From: Acidobacteriaceae bacterium
GTDB lineage: Bacteria > Acidobacteriota > Terriglobia > Terriglobales > Acidobacteriaceae
Reading direction: 5' to 3'
NCBI GenBank assembly: GCA_903642225.1
Contig: CAHJWI010000013.1
Coordinates: 1 to 64,000 of the forward strand
DNA length: 64,000 nucleotides
Both the position numbers and the translations under genes were made by a program. How positions within the stretch are numbered: position 1 is the first letter of the stretch; each line of letters begins with the position of its first letter. This document shows positions 48,870 through 64,000 of this stretch, in pieces. The notes below the pieces were generated by a model. It saw only the letters and a program-made list of their open reading frames with translations. It searched no databases and was not told where the DNA came from.

Positions 48870-51800
48870 ATGGATTCGCATTATCTGCCGCATCCCGACG
48901 AGAGTCGGTATGAATCTCTTTGGCAAGAAGAGCCTCCACTTCTCTTCGTGTTGGTCGTCGTTATAGCTTCTGCCGATGCGCAGGCGCAGCTTGCCAGTTT
49001 GGCTGCGCAGCTTAAGCCGACATCTGTCCAGACCGCCTATCTTTTTCTATGTTCGTCAGCCGACCAAAATGCCGCGGCGCAGATCTTCGCCGCATCGTCC
49101 GCGCTCCCCTGCCTACTCGCCCAAAGTGGTGAGCGGCTCGCATCAGACAGCATCTACCTTGTCCCCTACCAGTCATCCGCGACGGTGCACGACGGTAACG
49201 TCTATCTGACACCATTGAGCACGGAAAACACGTTTATCCAAGGGACAAACGCTCTTCTAGAGTCCGTCGCTCTCCAGCACAAGTACCTCACCGTCGCGGT
49301 GAATCTTGGCGATCAGACCAGCACAGAATTTGCCTCTATGAGCCAGGTTCGCGAAGCAGGTGGACTCGCCCTGCAGGCCCTTGCGGCAGGTCGCCTGCAA
49401 GCAGCGGATGCTATAGCTCTCACCGGTAGCTACGACGCCGTCTTTTCATCGGACGCGTTGCCTGCTGAACTACTACGACTTACAACGGGGATCAATCCGT
49501 TTCAAAACAGCAACAACTCCTGTCTCAATGGTGAGACAGTTCAGCCGGTACTTACTCTTTTACGCACACACCTGGGAATTGACTTACAAGGATATTGCCT
49601 GTCCATCATCTGCCGTAGGCTTCACAGGCGCATGCTTCTGCGGATGAAGGATAGGTCCACCTATTACACGTTGCTGCAATCCTCTTCTACCGAAGTACAA
49701 AAGCTTGGCTCCGATCTCTTAATGCCGTTCACCCGATTTTTTCGAGACGCCGAATGTTGGACTACTCTCAGCGACCTCGGTCTTCCCCGCCTTTTCGCAC
49801 TGGGTGAGGGCAAACCAACGCGCATCTGGAGTGCCGGCTGTTCCACCGGCGAAGAGGCTTACTCCCTGGCCATGCTGTTGGTCGAGCATCAAACGAAGAC
49901 AACCTCACCAGTGCCGTTCGTCATCTTTGGTACCGACGTCGATACCACCGCTCTACTCGCCGCCAGAGCTGGCCTTTACAGCCACACCATCGAACAGGAA
50001 CTGTCACCTGAGCGCCTGAAACGCTTCTTCATCAAGGAGGAGCGCGGGTACAGGGTGGTGTCTGAGCTCAGGGACATCTGTATCTTCTCGGACCATAACC
50101 TGTGCTTTGACGCCCCTCTGGCCGATGTCGATCTACTCGTTTGCCGTAACACGATCGGCCTCTTCGATCATCCTCTTCAGGAGCAGGCGATAGTCAACAT
50201 CCTGTATGCCCTGGCACCTCAGGGCATCTGTATGCTTGGGAAGGCAGACGTGACGGTGGGCCTGGATAGCCACTTGACCCCACTGCACGCAGGCCACCGG
50301 TTATACTTCAAGGCTCCCACAACGATGGACCGAAACACCGCTCAGACCCGGCCACAGACGGCACCCAAGCCGCAGGCCACAGATATGGAAAGTTTACCCA
50401 CGCAGGACATGCGCAGCCCTGTGGCAATGCCTGGCGCGCTTCAACGATACGCAAACAGCGTCGTTTCTACACGCTTCGGTCCGCCCGGCATCATCGTCGA
50501 CAGCAGTCTTAACGTTATCGAGATCAGAGGTGAACTCGCACCTTTCATTCAGGTCTCGGCAGGGCTCGCCAGTGGAAAGCTGCAGCAACTCGTTAAACCG
50601 GTACTCGCAAGCAGCATCTTTGATCTTGTCCAGCAAGCGACACCCGGTAACGCACCGCTTTCCAGCAATTGTCTGCTCCCCGGCTTCACAGAGAGTGTCA
50701 CTATAGAGGTGTTGCCTCTACCCACGGACAGCCTTGAAAGGCTATTCTTTCTCGTCCTCTTGCAGGGGGGTGCAATGGCCCCGGAAAACGCCGCTCGCAA
50801 TATAGTTTCACCCACGAGAAGCTCAGCAGACTCCGTCAGCTTTGTCCCGGAGCCCTCCTCGAGTTCCTCGGTCATAGATGCCGACCAGCAGACAAACAAG
50901 GAGCAGGAGAGCCGCCGTGAAGAGAGAACCGCCGCTCAGCGTCCCATCGCACCCGCGCCTACATTGTCCCTTAACGAGCAACGAAACTCGCGTTCAAACG
51001 CGGCCGGCACGCTCGTGCAGCAAGCCGTACAGATCGAGGCAGAAGGCCCTGCCCACCGGGTTAACGCAGAAGTGATCGGCCTGATTGCAAGTTCTGACAT
51101 TCCTCTGCTGCTGTTGACCAAGGATTTTGTGATTCGCCTGTTGTCTCCACCCATGGCGGACATTCTTGGACTCAGCCCATCCGACGTCGGAAAAGTTCTC
51201 ACGACGCTCGATCTGCACCTGAATGACTTCGGTCCTATAGAACCCCTTCTCACAGAGGTTCTGCAGACTCTGCGCACACACGAGCAGGAAGTCCAGGATC
51301 GCCAGCAGCATTGGTTCAGACTTGTCATACGCCCCCACCGGGTTACAAACGAGATTCGTGGTCTGGTCGTCATGCTTGTGGACATCGACACCGAACGGAC
51401 GCTTCGCCATCAACTCATCCACGCACGCGACTTCGCAGCGTGCATTCTGCAGCAGATTCCGGTGCCCCTCGCAGTTCTGCATGCTGATTTAAGTTTCCGT
51501 TCTGCAAATGCCGCATTCCAGAACGTCACGGGGTCAGCAAACCAAATCTTGACTGGCTGGTCGCTGCAGAACTTCACACAGAGATTTTGGGGTGTCTCAG
51601 CCGACGAAACCGAACTTCACAAATTGGAAGCGCTACCCATCGGCGGTCTCATCGAAACCGAGTTCAGCACGCGCTCCGCACCCGGACAAACACTTCTGAT
51701 CAAGGGTCAAGCCCTGCTCAACGGCACCGCTCGGGTCGTGCTGTTGCTGGTTGAAGACGTAACGCTCCGGCGAGAAACCGAACGACTTCTCGCCCGTCAG

Positions 51801-52508
51801 CAATCCGCACTCACTGACCAGCTGAAGAACAGAGACACCCTCCTGAAAGTGACGCAGAAGGAGTTGCACGATCTGGCACAGCATCTCTTTACCGTTCAGG
51901 AGCAGGAGCGGGAACGTATCGCCAGCGAATTGCACGACGATGTCAGCCAGCGCCTCAGCCTTCTGCACATGGCCTGCGACCGGCTTTCGCAGCTGCATCA
52001 TCCACCCGCTGAAGCAGCGGAGATCAACAGCATTACGCAGCAGGTCCAATCTCTTGCCAGCGACGTACGCGTCATGTCTCACAACCTTCATCCGGCGCTG
52101 TTAAAGCAACTTGGCCTGGTTGTCGCTCTCAAATCCCTGGTCGATGATTTCCGCGAAAAAGAGAATCTGCCCGCCACCTTGACCTCCACCATCGGCGCGC
52201 TCCAGCCCTCTGATCTGGCATCCACCACGTGCTACCGCGTCGTTCAGGAAGCTCTCCGCAACGTCGCAAAGCACGCCGGGCAAACACACGTCAAAATCAG
52301 CCTCGATTCCATGGATGACCTGCTCCGGCTTCAGATCCGTGACTTTGGCAACGGCTTCGACCAGGGCTCCTCTGTCCCTCAATCAGGTCTGGGTCTCACA
52401 AGTATGCGAGAGCGAACCCGTATCGCGGGAGGCACGTTCTCCATTACGTCCACACTGGGGGAAGGTACCGTCATCGTGGCCGAAGTGCCGGCAGGAATCG
52501 ATGCCTAG
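48870..52508 (+). CDS. CheB/CheR/PAS hybrid sensor histidine kinase
   Basis: A 1212-residue multidomain sensor. Residues about 20-200 resemble a CheB methylesterase domain but lack the clear catalytic Ser-His-Asp pattern. Residues 225-470 form a complete CheR methyltransferase (FTRFFRDAECW, the SAM motif WSAGCSTGEEAYSLA at 320-334, DLLVCRN). Two or three PAS-like domains follow (about 520-640, 740-860, 860-970). A coiled segment leads to the HisKA_3 phospho-acceptor His1022 in SELHDDVSQR and a HATPase domain (YRVVQEALRNVAKHA, RDFGNGFD, GLGLTSMRERTR). It ends by overlapping the response-regulator start. Composition is less GC-rich than neighbouring genes. Confidence 0.88.
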   Translation: MDSHYLPHPDESRYESLWQEEPPLLFVLVVVIASADAQAQLASLAAQLKPTSVQTAYLFLCSSADQNAAAQIFAASSALPCLLAQSGERLASDSIYLVPYQSSATVHDGNVYLTPLSTENTFIQGTNALLESVALQHKYLTVAVNLGDQTSTEFASMSQVREAGGLALQALAAGRLQAADAIALTGSYDAVFSSDALPAELLRLTTGINPFQNSNNSCLNGETVQPVLTLLRTHLGIDLQGYCLSIICRRLHRRMLLRMKDRSTYYTLLQSSSTEVQKLGSDLLMPFTRFFRDAECWTTLSDLGLPRLFALGEGKPTRIWSAGCSTGEEAYSLAMLLVEHQTKTTSPVPFVIFGTDVDTTALLAARAGLYSHTIEQELSPERLKRFFIKEERGYRVVSELRDICIFSDHNLCFDAPLADVDLLVCRNTIGLFDHPLQEQAIVNILYALAPQGICMLGKADVTVGLDSHLTPLHAGHRLYFKAPTTMDRNTAQTRPQTAPKPQATDMESLPTQDMRSPVAMPGALQRYANSVVSTRFGPPGIIVDSSLNVIEIRGELAPFIQVSAGLASGKLQQLVKPVLASSIFDLVQQATPGNAPLSSNCLLPGFTESVTIEVLPLPTDSLERLFFLVLLQGGAMAPENAARNIVSPTRSSADSVSFVPEPSSSSSVIDADQQTNKEQESRREERTAAQRPIAPAPTLSLNEQRNSRSNAAGTLVQQAVQIEAEGPAHRVNAEVIGLIASSDIPLLLLTKDFVIRLLSPPMADILGLSPSDVGKVLTTLDLHLNDFGPIEPLLTEVLQTLRTHEQEVQDRQQHWFRLVIRPHRVTNEIRGLVVMLVDIDTERTLRHQLIHARDFAACILQQIPVPLAVLHADLSFRSANAAFQNVTGSANQILTGWSLQNFTQRFWGVSADETELHKLEALPIGGLIETEFSTRSAPGQTLLIKGQALLNGTARVVLLLVEDVTLRRETERLLARQQSALTDQLKNRDTLLKVTQKELHDLAQHLFTVQEQERERIASELHDDVSQRLSLLHMACDRLSQLHHPPAEAAEINSITQQVQSLASDVRVMSHNLHPALLKQLGLVVALKSLVDDFREKENLPATLTSTIGALQPSDLASTTCYRVVQEALRNVAKHAGQTHVKISLDSMDDLLRLQIRDFGNGFDQGSSVPQSGLGLTSMRERTRIAGGTFSITSTLGEGTVIVAEVPAGIDA

Positions 52509-53154: not shown

Positions 53155-53517
53155 GCCCAACGAGCCCCAATGCCGCACTCCTGCAGGACGGCCTCGGCGT
53201 GAAGCTGCAGCTGCGAGATGCGTGCGTTAGTGTCCGCCAGCTCACGCCACAGCCGCAGAACTCAGGAAATCACTGGCGCGTTGCCTTGCTTGATCGCAAT
53301 GTAGGCAATAAGCGGCATTGACGACAATGGCCAGAAATGTAGGCAGTAGACGCTTTTAGTCCAACAGCCTACCCACATACTCAGCTTAGTTACAAACGAC
53401 AAGGGTACTTCTTGCCGTTGCCTTTAATCACCCCGCTCCGCGGGATCTGTTTTCCTACTCTGCCTGGCTTGTAATTTGCTTACCTTCCGCGTGAAGGGGC
53501 TTTCGAGGTGCGACACT
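53155..53517. other. Intergenic region ahead of the exopolysaccharide locus, with short repeats
   Basis: A 363-base gap without a credible gene. AATGTAGGCA occurs twice (53298-53307 and 53336-53345), 38 bases apart, and the small inverted repeat CATTG-ACGA-CAATG lies between the copies. This could be a regulator-binding site for the downstream operon, but no family consensus is recognised. Confidence 0.35.
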
Positions 53518-54978
53518 GTGCCATCCGCCTTTGCTGATTTTCTGCTGCAACGCCCAACTGACGTTATTGCCCCTGAACGCACAAACATCTTTCGTCCGGC
53601 TGTTCTAATGCAACGAGCTGAACTGCTCATGGACGCCATCACCGGCTGCCTGTCGCTTGGTTTCACCGCCTTGCTCCTCAGTCTGCTCTCTCACGGCGAC
53701 GTGATGCCCGGCAGCACCCGCCACGCGCTTGCGGCGTGCCTGCTCTTTCTTTGCCTCCTCATTCTTTTCCTCAATCAGTCTGGCACCTACCGTCTTACAG
53801 GTGGCTTGCTCGGCCTGCGTGAGACAGAATGTGTGCTGCGCGCAGTGGCTTCGTTGTTCGTCATCATCATCCCGTGTGCCCTGCTCTTCAGCTCACGCAA
53901 GTCGATGCTTGCCATCTTCGTGGAAGCACCAACCCTCGCCATCCTGCTGGTGCTGCAGAAGCAATTTCTTCACAAAGCACACGACCGTCTTCCGAGCCTT
54001 CTTTTTCCCCGCAAACGGGTCGTGATTTATGGATCCGCCGTCTCTGCCCGGCTGGTGTTCTCTACCCTACAGCGTTCCACAAAGTCCCGCATGCGGCCGG
54101 TGGCCATCGTTACAACAGAAGCGTCAGGCACACACTCCGCCGAAGTCGACGACGCCAACGACATGTCGTCGCTGGTGGAACACAACTCAACCGGCATCAG
54201 CGAACAGATGTTGCGGAAACACCGCGCGGATGTCGTCCTGGTCACTGAGACACCGCACTCCTCTGAAGCTTTTCAGCACATCATTCAGCAAAGCAGGCTG
54301 GCCGGTGCTCAGGTCGCATTTCGCGCCTTCGGCCCCATGCAAGACGCGTCCACCAACATTGATTACCTCGACCTGGACGGCCACATCGTGTACGGCCTGC
54401 ACCAGGTCTCCCCGCATGGGACACGGCCAACGCTCTCGCGCATCATCGATCTGGTCTTCGCTGTCGCCATGCTGTTGCTGCTTGCACCGGTGCTGCTGAT
54501 CACCGCGATCCTGGTTCGGCTCGATTCACCCGGCCCGGTCTTCTTCCGCCAAAAGCGGATAGGTCTTTACGGTGGTGCATTCACCATCTTCAAGTTCCGC
54601 ACCATGGGGCTGCAGCACTGCGGCAGTGGCGTCAGCCCGTCGGCATCCTCTGACCCCAGAATCACGCGCGTGGGCCGATGGCTGCGCAAGTCCAGCATCG
54701 ACGAGCTGCCTCAGCTCTGGAACGTCTTGCGCGGAGACATGGCGCTGGTCGGCCCCCGACCAGAGATGCCGTTCATCGTGGAGCAGTACACACCCATACA
54801 GCGTGCACGGCTCGATGCTTTGCCGGGGGTGACAGGTGTCTGGCAGCTCAGCGCTGATCGCTGCCGACCCATCCACGAGAACGTCCACTACGACCTTTAC
54901 TACCTACGGCATCGCTCACCTTTCTTTGACATGGCGATCCTGCTCCACACCATCTTTTTTGCAATGCGCGGTGTCTGA
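53518..54978 (+). CDS. Polyprenyl-phosphate sugar phosphotransferase (initiating enzyme)
   Basis: A 486-residue membrane protein of the WbaP/WcaJ type that transfers a sugar phosphate to undecaprenyl phosphate, the first step of exopolysaccharide repeat-unit assembly. The N-terminal half has four hydrophobic segments and a CoA-binding-like NAD domain (RVVIYGSAVSARLVFS). After a fifth helix (LVFAVAMLLLLAPVLLITAILVR) follows the catalytic domain: GPVFFRQKRIGLYGGAFTIFKFRTM, RKSSIDELPQLWNVLRGDMALVGPRPE and GVWQL. The start is taken as GTG at 53518, because GAGG lies ten bases before it; a TTG at 53476 is an alternative. Confidence 0.92.
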   Translation: MPSAFADFLLQRPTDVIAPERTNIFRPAVLMQRAELLMDAITGCLSLGFTALLLSLLSHGDVMPGSTRHALAACLLFLCLLILFLNQSGTYRLTGGLLGLRETECVLRAVASLFVIIIPCALLFSSRKSMLAIFVEAPTLAILLVLQKQFLHKAHDRLPSLLFPRKRVVIYGSAVSARLVFSTLQRSTKSRMRPVAIVTTEASGTHSAEVDDANDMSSLVEHNSTGISEQMLRKHRADVVLVTETPHSSEAFQHIIQQSRLAGAQVAFRAFGPMQDASTNIDYLDLDGHIVYGLHQVSPHGTRPTLSRIIDLVFAVAMLLLLAPVLLITAILVRLDSPGPVFFRQKRIGLYGGAFTIFKFRTMGLQHCGSGVSPSASSDPRITRVGRWLRKSSIDELPQLWNVLRGDMALVGPRPEMPFIVEQYTPIQRARLDALPGVTGVWQLSADRCRPIHENVHYDLYYLRHRSPFFDMAILLHTIFFAMRGV

Positions 54979-56956: not shown

Positions 56957-57931
56957 ATGCATGTCTTGGTAACCGGCGGTGCCGGATTTTTAGGATCGCA
57001 CTTGTGTGATGCCCTTCTCCACCGTGGAGATTCGGTCGTCTGCGTCGATAACTTGTGCACTGGCTCTGCTGCAAATATTCAGCATCTCGCCGGCAATCCT
57101 AACTTCGAATTCCTTCAGTGCGATATCTGCCAGCCTTTCTCGCCAGGCAAGGTCGACTTCATCTTTCATCTCGCTTCGCCAGCCAGCCCCTTCGACTATC
57201 TCCGGCTCGGTGTCGAAACCCTCGATGTGGGCTCCGTTGGCACCCGCAATGTGCTCGAGCTCGCCCAGCAGTACAACGCAGGCTATCTCGTTACCTCCAC
57301 ATCAGAATGCTACGGTGACCCGTCCGTCCATCCGCAACCCGAAAGCTACTGGGGCAACGTTAATCCCATCGGCCCTCGTTCGGTCTATGACGAGTCCAAG
57401 CGGTTCACCGAGGCCCTCACCATGGCCTATCACCGCTACCGCGGTGTCGACACCCACATTGTTCGTATCTTCAATACCTACGGCCCGCGCCTCAAGCCGG
57501 ACGACGGCCGCGTCATTTCCACCTTTGTCCGCCAGGCCCTCGCCGGCGAACCTCTCACCATCTTCGGTGACGGCTCGCAGACGCGCAGCTTCTGCTACGT
57601 CAGCGACCAGGTAAACGGCATCCTCAAGCTTGCCGCAAGCGGGGAGCACATGCCCGTCAACATCGGCAACGACGGCGAGTTCACCATGCTGGAGTGTGCA
57701 CAACTTGTGCTGGAACTTACAGGAGCCAATAGCCGTCTCGTCTTCCAGCCGCTGCCGCAGGATGATCCGCGCCAGCGTCGCCCGGATCTTACCCGTGCCC
57801 ACACACTCCTGCACTGGGCACCCACAGTTGATCTGCGCGAAGGTCTTACTCGCACGATTGCGCATTTCTCCAGAACGTCGCCTGTGCTGGAAAAGATTAC
57901 TTCCGAACGACCAACATTTCTTCCTGTATGA
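56957..57931 (+). CDS. UDP-glucuronate decarboxylase (UDP-xylose synthase)
   Basis: A 324-residue short-chain dehydrogenase. The N-terminal [13 protein letters not shown] motif, [28 protein letters not shown] (the YxxxK of UXS enzymes), [26 protein letters not shown] and [18 protein letters not shown] are diagnostic of UDP-xylose synthase. It converts UDP-glucuronate to UDP-xylose and NADH is recycled internally. With the UDP-glucose dehydrogenase downstream it makes the donor pathway complete. AGGAGG lies before the ATG. Confidence 0.93.
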
Positions 57932-58430: not shown

Positions 58431-58511
58431 GTAAGCTGCGGATATTCTGCCTTTAGCCGTCACGGTCAATCCGTGCCAACGCCCCACTGCGTCCCTTTAA
58501 TGGAGTTCATG

Positions 58512-59930
58512 ATGAAAATTGCTGTCATTGGTGTCGGTTATGTCGGTCTTGTGTCTGCGGCGTGTTTTGCAGAGCTGGGTCATACCGTCGTTGCAGTTGA
58601 TAACGATCCGGCGAAGGTCGCCATGCTGGATGCCGGGCACATGCCCATTCACGAAGATCTGCTCCCTGAGCTGGTCAAGCGCCACCACGGGGAGCGGCTC
58701 CACTTCTCCAGCGACATCCGCGAAGCCTCCAGTGACGCCGATGTCATCTTCATCTGCGTGGGAACCCCGCCCGCCATCAACGGCGACGCGGATATGTCCT
58801 ACGTGGAGGGCGTTGCCCGTGAACTCGCGGCTTCCCTTCACGGCCACAAGGTCGTCGTTGAAAAGAGCACCGTCCCCGTCGGCACAGCAGAAGCCGTGCA
58901 GCGCACCATGCTCCTTCACGGTGCTTCGCCGAACCACTTCAGCGTTGCCTCCAACCCGGAGTTCCTGCGCGAGGGTACTGCAGTGTCGGACTTCCTCTTT
59001 CCCGACCGCATCCTCCTCGGTGTGCCGAACGACCGCACCGGCAAGCTTCTGACAGAGCTCTACCAGCCCATTCTTGACGGCAGCTACTACCAGCGGCCCG
59101 ATGCGATCCCCGGCGACACCACCAAGGCAGCTCAACTCATCGTCACCAGCGTCAAGAGTGCGGAACTGATCAAGCACGCCTCCAACGCCTTCCTCGCCCT
59201 CAAAATCTCCTTCATCAACTCGGTCGCAAATGTCTGTGAACGCGTCGGTGCCGACGTTCGCGAGGTTGCGCTCGGCATGGGCACCGACTCCCGCATCGGC
59301 CCCAAGTTCCTCACGCCAGGCATCGGCTACGGCGGCTCCTGCTTTCCCAAGGATGTCCTGGCCTTCCGCTCGGTCGCAAAGCAGGTGGGCTACGACTTCA
59401 CCCTCCTCACCGAGGTCATGGAAGTGAACGAAGATCAGAAGGAACGCTTCGTCGCCAAGGTACGTGAGGCGCTCTGGACCATCCGCGGCAAAAAGCTTGC
59501 GGTTCTCGGCCTAGCCTTCAAGGGCGGTACCGACGACGTTCGCGACTCACCCGCGCTTGAGCTCGTGCGCCGCTTTGTCGAAGAGGGTGCACAGGTCACC
59601 GCATACGATCCCGCCGCCATGTCCCGCGCCCAGGCCACGCTTCCTCCCGGCTCGGTAACGTACGCCACCGACGCCTACGCCGCCTGCCTCAATGCAGACG
59701 CTGTCCTGGTCCTCACCGAATGGCCGGAGTTTGCCGACCTCGACCTGGCACGTGTGCGCAAGCTGCTCAAGCTGCCCATCGTCCTGGACGGCAAAAACCT
59801 GCTTGACCCGAACAAGGTCAAGGCCGCCGGTCTGCATTACTACGGCGTTGGCTGCTGTGCCTCTCCGTCGCCCCTGCCAGTCTCTTCCGCCCCTGCCCCG
59901 CGAGTTGCAGTCGAAACGGCTGCGGCTTAG
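58512..59930 (+). CDS. UDP-glucose 6-dehydrogenase
   Basis: A 472-residue enzyme that oxidises UDP-glucose twice to UDP-glucuronate. The NAD motif IGVGYVGLVSAACFAELGH opens the protein. KSTVPVGTAEAVQ, SNPEFLREGTAV, ELIKHASNAFLALKISFINSVAN with Lys221, and GIGYGGSCFPKD with the catalytic Cys277 are present. A Pro/Ala-rich tail of about 25 residues ends the protein. The second of two adjacent ATGs is chosen because GGAG is then six bases away. It supplies UDP-glucuronate to the UDP-xylose synthase. Confidence 0.95.
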   Translation: MKIAVIGVGYVGLVSAACFAELGHTVVAVDNDPAKVAMLDAGHMPIHEDLLPELVKRHHGERLHFSSDIREASSDADVIFICVGTPPAINGDADMSYVEGVARELAASLHGHKVVVEKSTVPVGTAEAVQRTMLLHGASPNHFSVASNPEFLREGTAVSDFLFPDRILLGVPNDRTGKLLTELYQPILDGSYYQRPDAIPGDTTKAAQLIVTSVKSAELIKHASNAFLALKISFINSVANVCERVGADVREVALGMGTDSRIGPKFLTPGIGYGGSCFPKDVLAFRSVAKQVGYDFTLLTEVMEVNEDQKERFVAKVREALWTIRGKKLAVLGLAFKGGTDDVRDSPALELVRRFVEEGAQVTAYDPAAMSRAQATLPPGSVTYATDAYAACLNADAVLVLTEWPEFADLDLARVRKLLKLPIVLDGKNLLDPNKVKAAGLHYYGVGCCASPSPLPVSSAPAPRVAVETAAA

Positions 59931-60014: not shown

Positions 60015-63000
60015 ATGATCAACGATTCTGCTCTGGTACCTGCATCCCAACCGTCCGCAGACCTGGTGCATATGCCACTGCGGTCCCGCGACTACAACCT
60101 TCTCGACCTGTGGAAGGTTGTCAGTCGACGGCGGCTCTGGATCCTGTCCTGCGTGGCCGTCGCGCTTACCCTGGGTGTCCTCTACAACCTCATCATCCCG
60201 CGTCTGTACCGTGCCACGGCACAGCTGCAAATCCTCAAACAGGATTCTGCAACGGATCTGTCTGACCCCGCGCAGGCAGCCGGCACCGCCGCCGCCGACG
60301 CCCTCGACTTCAACCTCGCCGTCCAGACTGACGTCAACGTTCTGCGTTCGCGCAACATGGCCCTCCGCGTCATCCATGAGCTCCATTTGGATCAGGACAA
60401 GGACTACCAGTTGCGCGGGGACGCCGAAGAAAACGGCCGGCAGCTTGAAGACGCCCCCAAACGCATGGCCTCCGTGCTCGAGCGCTTCGACAAACGACTT
60501 TCAGTGGATTCCGTCTCCGGCACCCGTCTGCTCGCGGTCAGCTTCATGGACCGCGATCCCAAACGTGCAGCCTCGGTCGTTAACCAGCTGCTCACCGACT
60601 TCATTGACTACAACTACCAGCTTCGCTTTGTCGCCAGCACCCAGGCCACCGGCTATCTTGGCAACCAGCTCCAGGCCATGAAGGCGCAGGTCGATGCAGC
60701 CCAGGCGAACGTCACCAAGTTGCAGCAAGCCTCCGGCATCTACGGCGTCGATGAAACCAACAACGCCGTCAACGCCAAGCTCCAGCAGCTCAACGCGCAG
60801 CTCACCCAGGCTGAGGCCAATCGCGCCGTCAAGGAGTCTATCTACAAGCTCGCCATCACCCGCTCGCCTGAGGTCCTCGCAGGCCTCATCGGTCAACAGG
60901 CGACCGGCGTCACCACCGCAAATGCACCGCTCCAACTCCTACGCCAGCAACAGGCTGAGGCTCAGGCCAACTACGCCGACCTCAGCGCGCACTACGGCGC
61001 GCAGTACCCCAAGGTCATCCAGGCCAATCAGCGCCTCCAGTCCATCCAGGCGTCCATTGACAAGGAAATGAACCGGCTCGTAGGCCAGGCCACCGCGGAG
61101 TACAGGGTAGCCGCCGACACGGAATCCGCGGCTTCCCGTGCGCTCGCCGCCCAAAAAGCCTCTGCCACGCAGATGAATCACGATGCTGTCCTGTACACCT
61201 CGGCGAAGCACGATGCGGACACCAGCCGCGACCTGTACGAAAAGCTGCAGCAACGGCTTAAAGAAGCCGGCATCCTCTCCAGCCTGCACTCCACCAATCT
61301 CAATATCCTCGACCGCGCCATCGCCCCCTCCAAATATGCGCAGTCCATCCTCCTCAGCCTCCTCATCGCACTGGCAGCCGGTATCCTCCTCGGCCTCATC
61401 GGCGCGTTTGGATCTGAAGCCTTCGACACCGCCATCCGCGATCCCCAGAAGATCGAAGATCTCCTCGGCATCCCGGTCCTCGGCCTGCTTCCCCCAGTCG
61501 AAACCGTGCTGCCGCGTGTCGCCGTTCAGGCCCTGCGCAAGAACGGTATCGGCCCGTCCTGGCAGTATCAGGTCACCGCCAAGGCTCCGCGCTCCCGCGT
61601 TGCGGAGGCTTTCCGTGTCCTGCGTACCTCCATTCTCTTCAGCCTGCAGCGTCGCCCCGCCCGCGTGCTTGCCATCACCAGCACGTCTGAAGGAGAAGGC
61701 AAGAGCTTCACTACCTTCAATCTCGCATCGGCCTTTGCCCAGTCCGGGCGCACCGTTCTTGTCATCGATGCAGATCTCCGCAAGCGCACCCTCAGCGTTG
61801 CGCTCGATATGCAGGAGCACGACGGCCTCGACCAGGCACTGTCCGGCGACGACTGGCACAAAGCCGTCGTCAGCTATCCGGAGATGCCTGGCCTCTTCGT
61901 CATGCCGGCGGGTCGCGTCGGTGAGTATCCGGCTGACCTGCTCGGCTCTGTCGCGATGGCAGAGCTTGCCGGCAGCCTGCGCGACGCTTTCGACCTCGTC
62001 CTCGTCGACACGCCGTCCATGCTCGCTGTCTCGGACACGCTCTCCCTCACCACCTCGGTCGACGCCTTCATCGTGCTCGCACAGTGCGGTGTCACCGCGC
62101 AACACTCGCTGTCGCGCACGTTGGACATGCTTTCCCGCGCCGGCGCACGCGTCCTCGGCGTCGTTCTCAACGGCATCGATTTCCGCTCGGCAGACTTCTA
62201 CTACTACTGGGGCAAAACCAGCAGCGGCTACGACGCACCATCCGCCCAGATTCTCGCCCCCGTCCTTCCGCCCTCCCGCTCCACCAAGAAGCCGATCGGC
62301 ATCATCGTTGCTCTGGCCATCGCCCTCGGCCTCTCCTGCACACACCGCAGCGGGGCGCAGATCAGCGCAGAACATCCAGTACCCGTCGCGACAAAGGTAC
62401 CCGTAACATCATCTGTTCCTGCCGGTAATGCGTCAGCCGCCGCCACCACCACCCCCGAAAGCTCTGCCCAAAAAGTGCTCATCGGCTCCGGCGATCTGCT
62501 TTCCATCACCGTCTACGACGCGCCGGAGCTCGCCCAGGACGTGCGCGTCAGCTCCACCGGCAACGTTCATCTCACCATTCTCGGCGACATCCATGCCAAC
62601 GGCCTCCAGCCTGACGCACTCTCCGAGGTGATTGAGGGCCAGCTCCGCGACCGGCAGCTCATCCAGCAGCCCCACGTCTCCGTCACCATCAAGGAGTTCA
62701 CCACACAGGGCGTCACGGTCGAAGGCGAAGTCAAGAAGCCCGGCGTCTACCCCATCTATGCCGAGCGAAGCCTGCTTGACATGATTGCCATGGCGGACGG
62801 CCTCACCCCCAACGCGGACACCCATATCAGCATCCGCCGCCACGGTAACGGTACGGTCGACAAGGTCCTCGTCAGCCAAAACGACCCAGACCTCTCGCAG
62901 CGCAGTGTCCGCGTCTATCCCGGCGACGTCGTCATCGTTCCCCGCGCCGGCCTCGCCTATGTTCTGGGAGATGTTCAACGCCCCGGCGGTTACATCATGC

Positions 63001-63281
63001 ACGACGATGGCCGCATGAGCGTCATCCAGGCCATCTCTGAAGCTCAGGGCACCACCAAGCTCGCCTCCATGAAGCACGTCGTGCTCCTACACAACGCCTC
63101 CTCCGGCATCGTTCGCACGGAACTTCGCCTGGACGACATTCTGCGCGGCAAGCTTCCGGACGTCCCCCTCGAAAACGGCGACATCCTCTTCGTCCCCGCC
63201 AGCGGCATGAAGACCTTCGCGCAAAACACCGCCGGCATCACCTCCTCCGTCTCCGGTGCCGCACTTTACACGGTGCGCTAA
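60015..63281 (+). CDS. Wzc-type tyrosine autokinase fused to a Wza-type polysaccharide export protein
   Basis: A 1088-residue single reading frame. Residues 1-465 are a Wzz-type co-polymerase domain with helix 1 (about 41-61), a long coiled periplasmic part and helix 2 (about 444-466). Residues about 520-745 are a BY-kinase: Walker A TSEGEGKS (557-564), Walker A' VLVIDADLRK, Walker B LVLVDTP, then a tyrosine cluster (Tyr729-731 and Tyr739). A third helix (about 760-775) follows a basic RSTKK. Residues about 820-1088 form an export (OPX/Wza-like) domain with an SLBB repeat pair (QGVTVEGEVKKPGVYPIY, AYVLGDVQRPGGYIM). No in-frame stop or start codon separates the halves. The TTGGAG at 60003 serves the ATG; an in-frame TTG at 60003 is less likely. 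Confidence 0.9.
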   Translation: MINDSALVPASQPSADLVHMPLRSRDYNLLDLWKVVSRRRLWILSCVAVALTLGVLYNLIIPRLYRATAQLQILKQDSATDLSDPAQAAGTAAADALDFNLAVQTDVNVLRSRNMALRVIHELHLDQDKDYQLRGDAEENGRQLEDAPKRMASVLERFDKRLSVDSVSGTRLLAVSFMDRDPKRAASVVNQLLTDFIDYNYQLRFVASTQATGYLGNQLQAMKAQVDAAQANVTKLQQASGIYGVDETNNAVNAKLQQLNAQLTQAEANRAVKESIYKLAITRSPEVLAGLIGQQATGVTTANAPLQLLRQQQAEAQANYADLSAHYGAQYPKVIQANQRLQSIQASIDKEMNRLVGQATAEYRVAADTESAASRALAAQKASATQMNHDAVLYTSAKHDADTSRDLYEKLQQRLKEAGILSSLHSTNLNILDRAIAPSKYAQSILLSLLIALAAGILLGLIGAFGSEAFDTAIRDPQKIEDLLGIPVLGLLPPVETVLPRVAVQALRKNGIGPSWQYQVTAKAPRSRVAEAFRVLRTSILFSLQRRPARVLAITSTSEGEGKSFTTFNLASAFAQSGRTVLVIDADLRKRTLSVALDMQEHDGLDQALSGDDWHKAVVSYPEMPGLFVMPAGRVGEYPADLLGSVAMAELAGSLRDAFDLVLVDTPSMLAVSDTLSLTTSVDAFIVLAQCGVTAQHSLSRTLDMLSRAGARVLGVVLNGIDFRSADFYYYWGKTSSGYDAPSAQILAPVLPPSRSTKKPIGIIVALAIALGLSCTHRSGAQISAEHPVPVATKVPVTSSVPAGNASAAATTTPESSAQKVLIGSGDLLSITVYDAPELAQDVRVSSTGNVHLTILGDIHANGLQPDALSEVIEGQLRDRQLIQQPHVSVTIKEFTTQGVTVEGEVKKPGVYPIYAERSLLDMIAMADGLTPNADTHISIRRHGNGTVDKVLVSQNDPDLSQRSVRVYPGDVVIVPRAGLAYVLGDVQRPGGYIMHDDGRMSVIQAISEAQGTTKLASMKHVVLLHNASSGIVRTELRLDDILRGKLPDVPLENGDILFVPASGMKTFAQNTAGITSSVSGAALYTVR

Positions 63282-64000
63282 TGAACCTGCCCACCCTCAC
63301 TGAAGGCGGTGCCGCCGCACAGGTGCACCGCATCTCCACCATCGCACTCATGCTTGCCATGATGGGCGTCATCGTCGGCATCACCACACCCGGCCTGGCA
63401 GACACGGACCTCGGTGTCGTCGGCACGGAAGTTCACCTGCCGGTCGTCCTCACCACCGCCGTGCTGTATGTGCTTGTCCTGTCCCCGCTCATTCTGCAGC
63501 CGCAGGCCATGCTCCGCGGCCTCAAGTCGCTCGCCTGGTTCACGCCCCTGGTGGCGTATAGCATGCTCTCCGCCAGCTGGAGTCACACACCCTCCATCAC
63601 GCTTCGCCGCTCGCTCTTTCTTGCTCTCACCACACTCACCGGCGTCGTTCTCGGTACCAAGTACAACCTTCGACAGCTGGGCCGCATGCTCGCCGCAGCC
63701 AGCGCCATCCACCTCCTTGTCGTTGCCGTGCTGCTGGTGGTCGATCCCGCCTGGGTCACCTCCTACTCCGACGGCCACGCCATCAAGGGCCTCACGTCCC
63801 ACAAAAACATCTTTGGTCTCGAGGCGGGTCTGGCAGCCATTGTCTTTGCGCTCGTTCCCTTCCCTCGCCTCACCCGCCTGCGATGGCCGCTGGTTGCGCT
63901 CGCTCTCGCGATGCTCATTTTCTCCCGATCGGCAGGTTCGCTTGTCGCCACCGTCGCCGGTTTCGCCTGCCTTCCGCTCTTCCTTCCCATGCGCTTCCGT
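63281..64000 (+). CDS. O-antigen ligase/polymerase-like membrane protein (partial, cut by the right edge)
   Basis: 240 codons are visible, starting at an ATG that overlaps the stop of the Wzc/Wza fusion (TAATG). Six or more hydrophobic segments are seen, with LVLSPLILQP, SWSHTPSITLRRSLFLALTT, and a KGLTSHKNIFGLEAGLAAIVF block, typical of the O-antigen ligase/Wzy superfamily (the conserved H-K-N and nearby residues). It probably polymerises or ligates repeat units at the inner membrane. The C-terminus and thus the final assignment are outside the window. Confidence 0.75.
   Translation, partial: MNLPTLTEGGAAAQVHRISTIALMLAMMGVIVGITTPGLADTDLGVVGTEVHLPVVLTTAVLYVLVLSPLILQPQAMLRGLKSLAWFTPLVAYSMLSASWSHTPSITLRRSLFLALTTLTGVVLGTKYNLRQLGRMLAAASAIHLLVVAVLLVVDPAWVTSYSDGHAIKGLTSHKNIFGLEAGLAAIVFALVPFPRLTRLRWPLVALALAMLIFSRSAGSLVATVAGFACLPLFLPMRFR

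Follow-up and report, generated by a model that had tools for sequence, protein, structure and literature searches.

A single open reading frame in a 64,000-nucleotide stretch of contig CAHJWI010000013.1 from an Acidobacteriaceae bacterium (the window, by which we mean that whole stretch) joins a Wzc-type co-polymerase and bacterial tyrosine kinase (BY-kinase) to a Wza-type outer-membrane polysaccharide export protein (OPX). The frame, at 60015-63281 on the forward strand, runs from ATG to TAA over 1088 codons (1116 from stop to stop), and its 1088-aa product, P0001, has a computed mass of 116.9 kDa, close to the ~115 kDa expected in the original prediction, a note made from the letters alone. 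We are confident that one chain carries kinase and exporter, either as a polyprotein that signal peptidase cuts into equal numbers of two products or as a permanent tether; co-polymerase and OPX appear to have been joined at least twice in this lineage. Both halves were already known; what is unusual is their union in one conserved gene.

One frame from co-polymerase to exporter

Judged by domain content, the front of P0001 would be classed as a PCP-2a/BY-kinase protein (PCP, polysaccharide co-polymerase) of the Wzc type: Wzz and GNVR matches and two strong transmembrane helices (TM1 and TM2), which flank the Wzz part, are followed by a kinase domain in the same chain. The GNVR match (residues 398-465) fell below the Pfam cut-off in P0001 and above it in P0002, the orthologue from genome G218. 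Among NCBIfam models TIGR01007 scored 144.9 bits (cut-off 108.05), and EpsE/EpsF-type models stayed below their cut-offs. Three kinase motifs found by eye, EGEGKSF, VLVIDADLRKR and LVLVDTPS, are kept in the G218 alignment; we take them to be Walker A, A′ and B. The C-terminal third, Poly_export followed by two SLBB domains, would be classed as an OPX of the Wza type, since the available text of PMC9603273 defines OPX by Poly_export and then at least one SLBB. Wza_C (PF18412), by which OPX class 1 is recognised, was not among the Pfam matches of P0001 at E≤0.001; the conserved last 28 residues may form a short outer-membrane helix. A profile of P0001 and P0002 matched solved structures of both partners, Wzc chains at profile positions 356-741 (best E 5e-41) and Wza chains at positions 820-1032 (E about 1e-16).

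Between the halves the protein reads ...SADFYYYWGKTSSGYDAPSAQILAPVLPPSRSTKKPIGIIVALAIALGLSCTHRSGAQISAEHP... The tyrosine-rich tail of E. coli Wzc is a free chain end; the corresponding cluster of P0001 is internal, with the same four tyrosines in the G218 alignment and only one in the corresponding stretch of a third fusion, from genome G794. The original prediction held that no ATG, GTG or TTG at the junction could start a separate export gene, and none was found in frame between codons 726 and 820. In-frame ATT (62250), ATC and CTG codons are present there, without a Shine-Dalgarno match of at least 4 bases; TTG 62308 and ATG 62428 are out of frame; and 62161-62307 contains no ATG, GTG or TTG in any forward frame. 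GC content was highest at the third codon position throughout the gene, junction included, with a weaker contrast at 62265-62414 (0.60/0.58/0.70 for the three positions).

An open junction alone is weak evidence of fusion, because base-shuffled versions of the window junction were free of stops in 23% of trials (10% for G218, 6% for G794). Decisive are the stop-free G218 orthologue and the fused G794 junction. A search of 398 genomes of the same family at E≤1e-150 gave matches in five: the window's own genome, G218, G794, and two (G124, G771) with an in-frame stop between the halves, which leaves the fusion in 3 of 398. P0002, stop-free and about 62-63% identical, lies on a 4.7 Mb contig. In G794, where the gene is cut by a contig end and was pieced together from two contigs, contig C183 carries the kinase end and the OPX part in a single open frame of 454 codons, and C219 carries the front. 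Identity falls to 30% at the junction, compared with 63-65% elsewhere in the fusion, and the frame is kept. The three fusions clustered with local support 1.0 in both a kinase and an OPX tree (54 and 89 sequences, drawn from fetched loci), which points to one clade of single origin extending over three genera.

These orthologues also bear on whether two genes were joined by a sequencing or assembly error, or whether the gene is decaying in this strain. The window's genome is a draft assembly in 62 contigs, estimated at 94% completeness, and among 19 genomes of the same genus it alone gave a spanning match at E≤1e-35, the other 18 being without a match at E≤1e-150. Yet the G218 and G794 fusions, the conserved kinase motifs and OPX domains, and the lack of start codons in 62161-62307 for a small frame error to conceal make such an artefact or decay extremely improbable. 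A frameshift near the junction, on which the original prediction had said it would fall, was rejected on the same orthologous fusions.

The internal signal-like sequence and the probable fate of the precursor

The original prediction described a basic RSTKK stretch and a hydrophobic helix that would place the OPX part in the periplasm, and the sequence is consistent with this topology. The hydrophobic stretch (residues 759-779) is weaker in hydropathy than TM1 and TM2, and its surroundings fit the signal peptidase I pattern, with a basic n-region, a hydrophobic core and small residues before the predicted cut. Downstream of the hydrophobic stretch a script found the motif [AGSC]-Q (a hyphen marks the possible cut) in 11 of 12 fused proteins, and reading by eye found it in all 12; the twelve are the three kinase fusions and nine kinase-less ones described below, and in the exception, locus L041, the script had picked TM2 where by eye the protein reads HG-QAPTP. 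The motif was present in 69 of 77 unfused OPX proteins, as against 8 of 66 co-polymerases after TM1 and 5 of 66 after TM2. Median 19-residue hydropathy before the Q was 1.76 in the 12 fused proteins and 1.64 in the 69 unfused OPX proteins, compared with medians of 2.14 (TM1) and 2.22 (TM2) in 54 kinases; for G794 the script used an earlier S-Q, not the NA-Q read by eye. From these counts and medians, the fusion appears to have kept a working OPX signal peptide.

Signal peptidase probably cleaves the fused precursor. The explanation as a whole that we prefer, with moderate confidence, begins with loss of the stop between adjoining kinase and OPX genes in a Wzx/Wzy-type exopolysaccharide cluster. 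The fused gene would be translated as one precursor, whose Wzz part would insert through its two membrane helices while the kinase stayed in the cytoplasm. What was once the signal peptide of the OPX protein would, from its internal position, carry the C-terminal third across the inner membrane, and signal peptidase I would most likely cut after the small residue before Q (A781-Q782). The products, a Wzc-like kinase of ~84 kDa and an OPX exporter of ~32 kDa (about 84.5 and 32.5 kDa computed for a cut after A781), would arise in equal numbers, possibly to the cell's benefit, and assemble as in the Wza-Wzc machine.

Several points weigh against cleavage. Single fused segments have anchor-like hydropathy (2.25 in L132, 2.15 in G794) and could stay uncut. 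The 12 of 12 are not twelve independent events, because the nine kinase-less fusions form one clade. A histidine and an arginine stand close to the window cut site (HRSGA-Q). C775 could also be read as part of a poor lipobox; the lipoprotein reading was rejected, the fit by eye being loose.

If the helix is instead an uncut third anchor, kinase and exporter remain one chain, so that the eightfold ring of the kinase could not come apart from that of the exporter, in contrast to the cycle of assembly and disassembly proposed for E. coli Wza-Wzc. Such a lasting single chain, as the original prediction had it, accords with one frame in three genera, two of them without a normal internal start, and with those fused segments that fall within the anchor range; an internal signal in a polytopic protein also has a precedent in the Streptomyces Rieske protein (the accessible part of PMC13186574). 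We nevertheless consider it rather unlikely. The fused proteins retain a motif of the cleavage type, and their hydrophobic stretch lies closer to unfused signal peptides than to TM1 or TM2. Between Q and the first OPX domain lie 41 residues in P0001 and 33 in P0002, at most ~140 and ~115 Å at 3.5 Å per residue, and ~140 Å would have to be bridged from inner membrane to Wza D1, a rough subtraction that assumes E. coli dimensions (reported values are 220 Å for Wzc and about 250 Å for the periplasmic span). With linkers so short a tether would be tight if those dimensions apply; G794 and the kinase-less fusions have longer ones. Cleavage is favoured over a permanent tether because the internal stretch, with [A/G]-Q at its end as in separate OPX proteins, looks like an OPX signal sequence that the fusion has retained.

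The OPX half might also be started within the frame, giving two products by internal initiation. In G794 in-frame ATG codons precede the signal sequence, and one (L150:272) has, by eye, a GGAG six bases upstream, so that this genome could make extra OPX; the window ATT at 62250 aligns with an ATG in G794 and an ATC in G218. Against this, the window and G218 have no in-frame ATG, GTG or TTG ahead of the signal sequence, the in-frame TTG of G218 falls inside the hydrophobic stretch, and the window ATT is without a Shine-Dalgarno match. We hold internal initiation to be improbable. The fixed 1:1 synthesis originally proposed is thus supported for the window gene, which has no usable start codon left for its OPX half, and does not extend securely to G794. 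With its internal ATG and single tail tyrosine (L150:230-320), the G794 gene is possibly a halfway state between two genes and one.

Unfused pairs, kinase-less fusions and rarity

In 27 loci picked for holding both halves (two of them the same place), the kinase precedes OPX in 26, and in 15 the stop of the kinase gene shares 4 bases (ATGA or GTGA) with a candidate start for OPX. In G401, the closest unfused relative, the overlap is a single base, and in several more distant relatives kinase and OPX share a frame with one stop between them. Kinase followed by OPX is the likely ancestral order, as far as these loci indicate. Since neighbours in unfused relatives overlap or lie in the same frame, loss of the stop and later of the start would be a short path to the fusion. 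A single stop codon parts in-frame kinase and OPX genes at L142, L145, L121 and L126 (G124, G771, G203 and G322); being in one frame, such pairs would be fused by loss or read-through of that stop. A paralogous pair in the window's own genome (G000:C30, L058) and separate pairs of relatives resemble the fusion in gene order and domains, but have kept their stop and start codons and encode two proteins. Candidates with one stop in frame were set aside as two-gene arrangements (G028, G037, G124, G203, G262, G322, G337 at two places, G385, G399 and G771); for G037 a fused frame of 1330 codons had first been indicated, and a stop separates the genes.

The kinase-containing fusion is rare in our samples and, at the limits used, not common in the phylum. 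Among the matches listed for a class sample of 399 genomes, in which not all long kinase frames were opened (G265, for example, with 946 codons), those of the window and G218 were stop-free and spanning, and 396 genomes of the phylum gave no additional one. Divergent fusions could be missed, because these large searches scored two or three candidates per genome under strict limits. Two pattern scans of a collection of genome contigs gave 5 and 111 matches, none confirmed, and may have excluded close relatives. Against plasmids, tblastn gave matches in 799 records; among the best 40 of the 799, those covering both halves mostly had at least two annotated genes there, and five were unannotated at that place.

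A second form, with Wzz and OPX in one frame and no kinase, was found at nine loci (L130-L137 and L041; G020 plus eight of 20 regions, in genomes G140, G353, G393, G047, G295, G214, G401 and G277), in proteins of 841-884 codons. A profile of five of them detected it in 14 members of the 399-genome class sample, which belong to two genera, and never with an internal stop, so that in the class sample it is commoner than the kinase-containing fusion. Here the second Wzz helix is joined to an OPX signal-like segment, followed by a conserved QAPTPSTSGLP-type start, and tblastn found no kinase domain in three 19.5 kb loci around such genes. In the OPX tree the nine form a clade of their own (support 1.0), to which none of the three kinase fusions belongs, and the smallest clade containing all twelve has 60 members; on this tree the kinase-less fusion is of separate origin. 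Like the window gene, these fusions (in G047, G140, G353 and others) are single frames joined through a signal-like stretch that has been kept, with [A/G]-Q at its end; unlike it, they have no kinase domain in the protein and a separate place in the tree. A membrane protein resembling Wzy by eye follows the gene in two of three wider loci.

Gene neighbourhood and known systems

Coordinates are collected in Table 1; the names of cluster genes were mostly inferred from sequence by eye.

Table 1. Features of the fused gene and of its cluster in the window
Feature	Positions	Strand	Basis
Polyprenyl glycosylphosphotransferase (WcaJ type), would start the polymer	53476..54978	+	TIGR03025 above cut-off
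UDP-glucose 6-dehydrogenase-type gene, directly upstream of the fusion	58506..59930	+	TIGR03026 above cut-off
Fused gene P0001, Wzz/GNVR co-polymerase + BY-kinase + OPX, 1088 aa	60015..63281	+	Translation; Pfam; NCBIfam
Wzz domain, residues 28-123	60096..60383	+	PF02706, 43 bits (cut-off 25.5)
TM1, residues 43-61	60141..60197	+	Hydropathy peak 2.34
TM2, residues 445-463	61347..61403	+	Hydropathy peak 2.73
BY-kinase domain AAA_31, residues 550-707, above cut-off	61662..62135	+	Pfam, NCBIfam
Tyrosine cluster, residues 729-739, YYYWGKTSSGY, four Tyr, internal, no longer C-terminus	62199..62231	+	Sequence
Signal-like internal segment (KKPIGIIVALAIALGLSCTHRSGA), residues 758-781, with a possible signal peptidase I site following A781	62286..62357	+	Hydropathy, motif comparison
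Pro/Ala/Thr/Ser-rich linker, residues 782-816	62358..62462	+	Sequence
Poly_export (Wza D1-like), residues 817-892, above cut-off	62463..62690	+	Pfam
First SLBB, residues 900-943, above cut-off	62712..62843	+	Pfam
Second SLBB (SLBB_2), residues 981-1060, above cut-off	62955..63194	+	Pfam
Conserved C-terminal stretch, residues 1061-1088 (PASGMKTFAQNTAGITSSVSGAALYTVR)	63195..63278	+	Alignment of three fusions
Wzy-like gene (name inferred), runs on to about 64582 outside the window	63281..64000	+	Weak EpaQ-family match below cut-off

The ATG of the Wzy-like gene overlaps the TAA of the fusion by one base; G218 has such a gene in the same place. Gene order is largely shared with G218: glycosylphosphotransferase, epimerase, WecG-like gene, UDP-glucose dehydrogenase, fusion, Wzy-like and Wzx-like genes, two glycosyltransferases, a co-polymerase-like gene and a kinase-like gene. 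An additional epimerase-like gene, at 56957-57931, is in the window's list and not in that of G218. Upstream of the cluster, 48870-52508 encodes a 1212-aa protein of CheR/PAS/histidine-kinase appearance (by eye), followed by a response regulator.

Downstream on the same contig lies a second export set (L039:10037-13744). Its OPX is short (183 aa), and a protein of 487 aa, which has no Pfam or NCBIfam match, is by its appearance a possible outer-membrane barrel. The set also includes a small protein resembling a co-polymerase and another resembling a BY-kinase, the latter with a Walker A′ that looks degenerate by eye. The short OPX and the 487-aa protein are absent from the corresponding place in G218, and tblastn found no OPX in the 16 kb of G218:C1:130000-146000. 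With no other OPX at that place, the fused OPX probably serves the G218 cluster as its main exporter, and we rejected the short OPX and the 487-aa protein as obligatory partners, since G218 has the fusion without them there. Another OPX match in the window's own genome (L005, G000:C22:46385-46612) lies within a very long open frame of at least 794 aa.

How Wzc and Wza meet across the periplasm, and whether they must separate in each export cycle, are current questions. The natural fusion offers a test: should the uncut chain be functional, kinase and exporter need not come apart, and should it be cleaved, it would be an unusual bacterial polyprotein that fixes a subunit ratio. It also calls for caution in annotation, as one gene may be counted both as kinase and as exporter. 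In Bradyrhizobium, the FbcH cytochrome b/c1 precursor likewise unites an inner-membrane and an exported partner in one chain with an internal signal and is cut in two; our literature searches did not return it, and its proteins and pathway are unrelated to those of the window gene. For cut internal signals they returned the Streptomyces Rieske protein alone, from the accessible part of PMC13186574. No published kinase-OPX or PCP-OPX fusion was found in the partial coverage of our searches, which included the available text of PMC12004946, PMC9603273 and PMC9601211.

Variants of PCP-2 (Wzc, CapAB and EcpK/EpsV) have co-polymerase and kinase in one chain or two, according to the accessible part of PMC12004946; there it is the kinase that joins or splits, not the OPX exporter. 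The closest known counterpart is the E. coli pair of Wzc (PCP-2a, BY-kinase) and Wza (OPX), for which the available text of PMC12881504 (Nat Commun 2026) reports a complex solved by cryo-electron microscopy. The fusion has the same partners, the same domain order within each, profile matches to both and a Wzx/Wzy-type cluster. It differs in that E. coli Wzc and Wza are two proteins from two genes, whereas the window has a single gene, with an OPX half in which Wza_C is not recognised.

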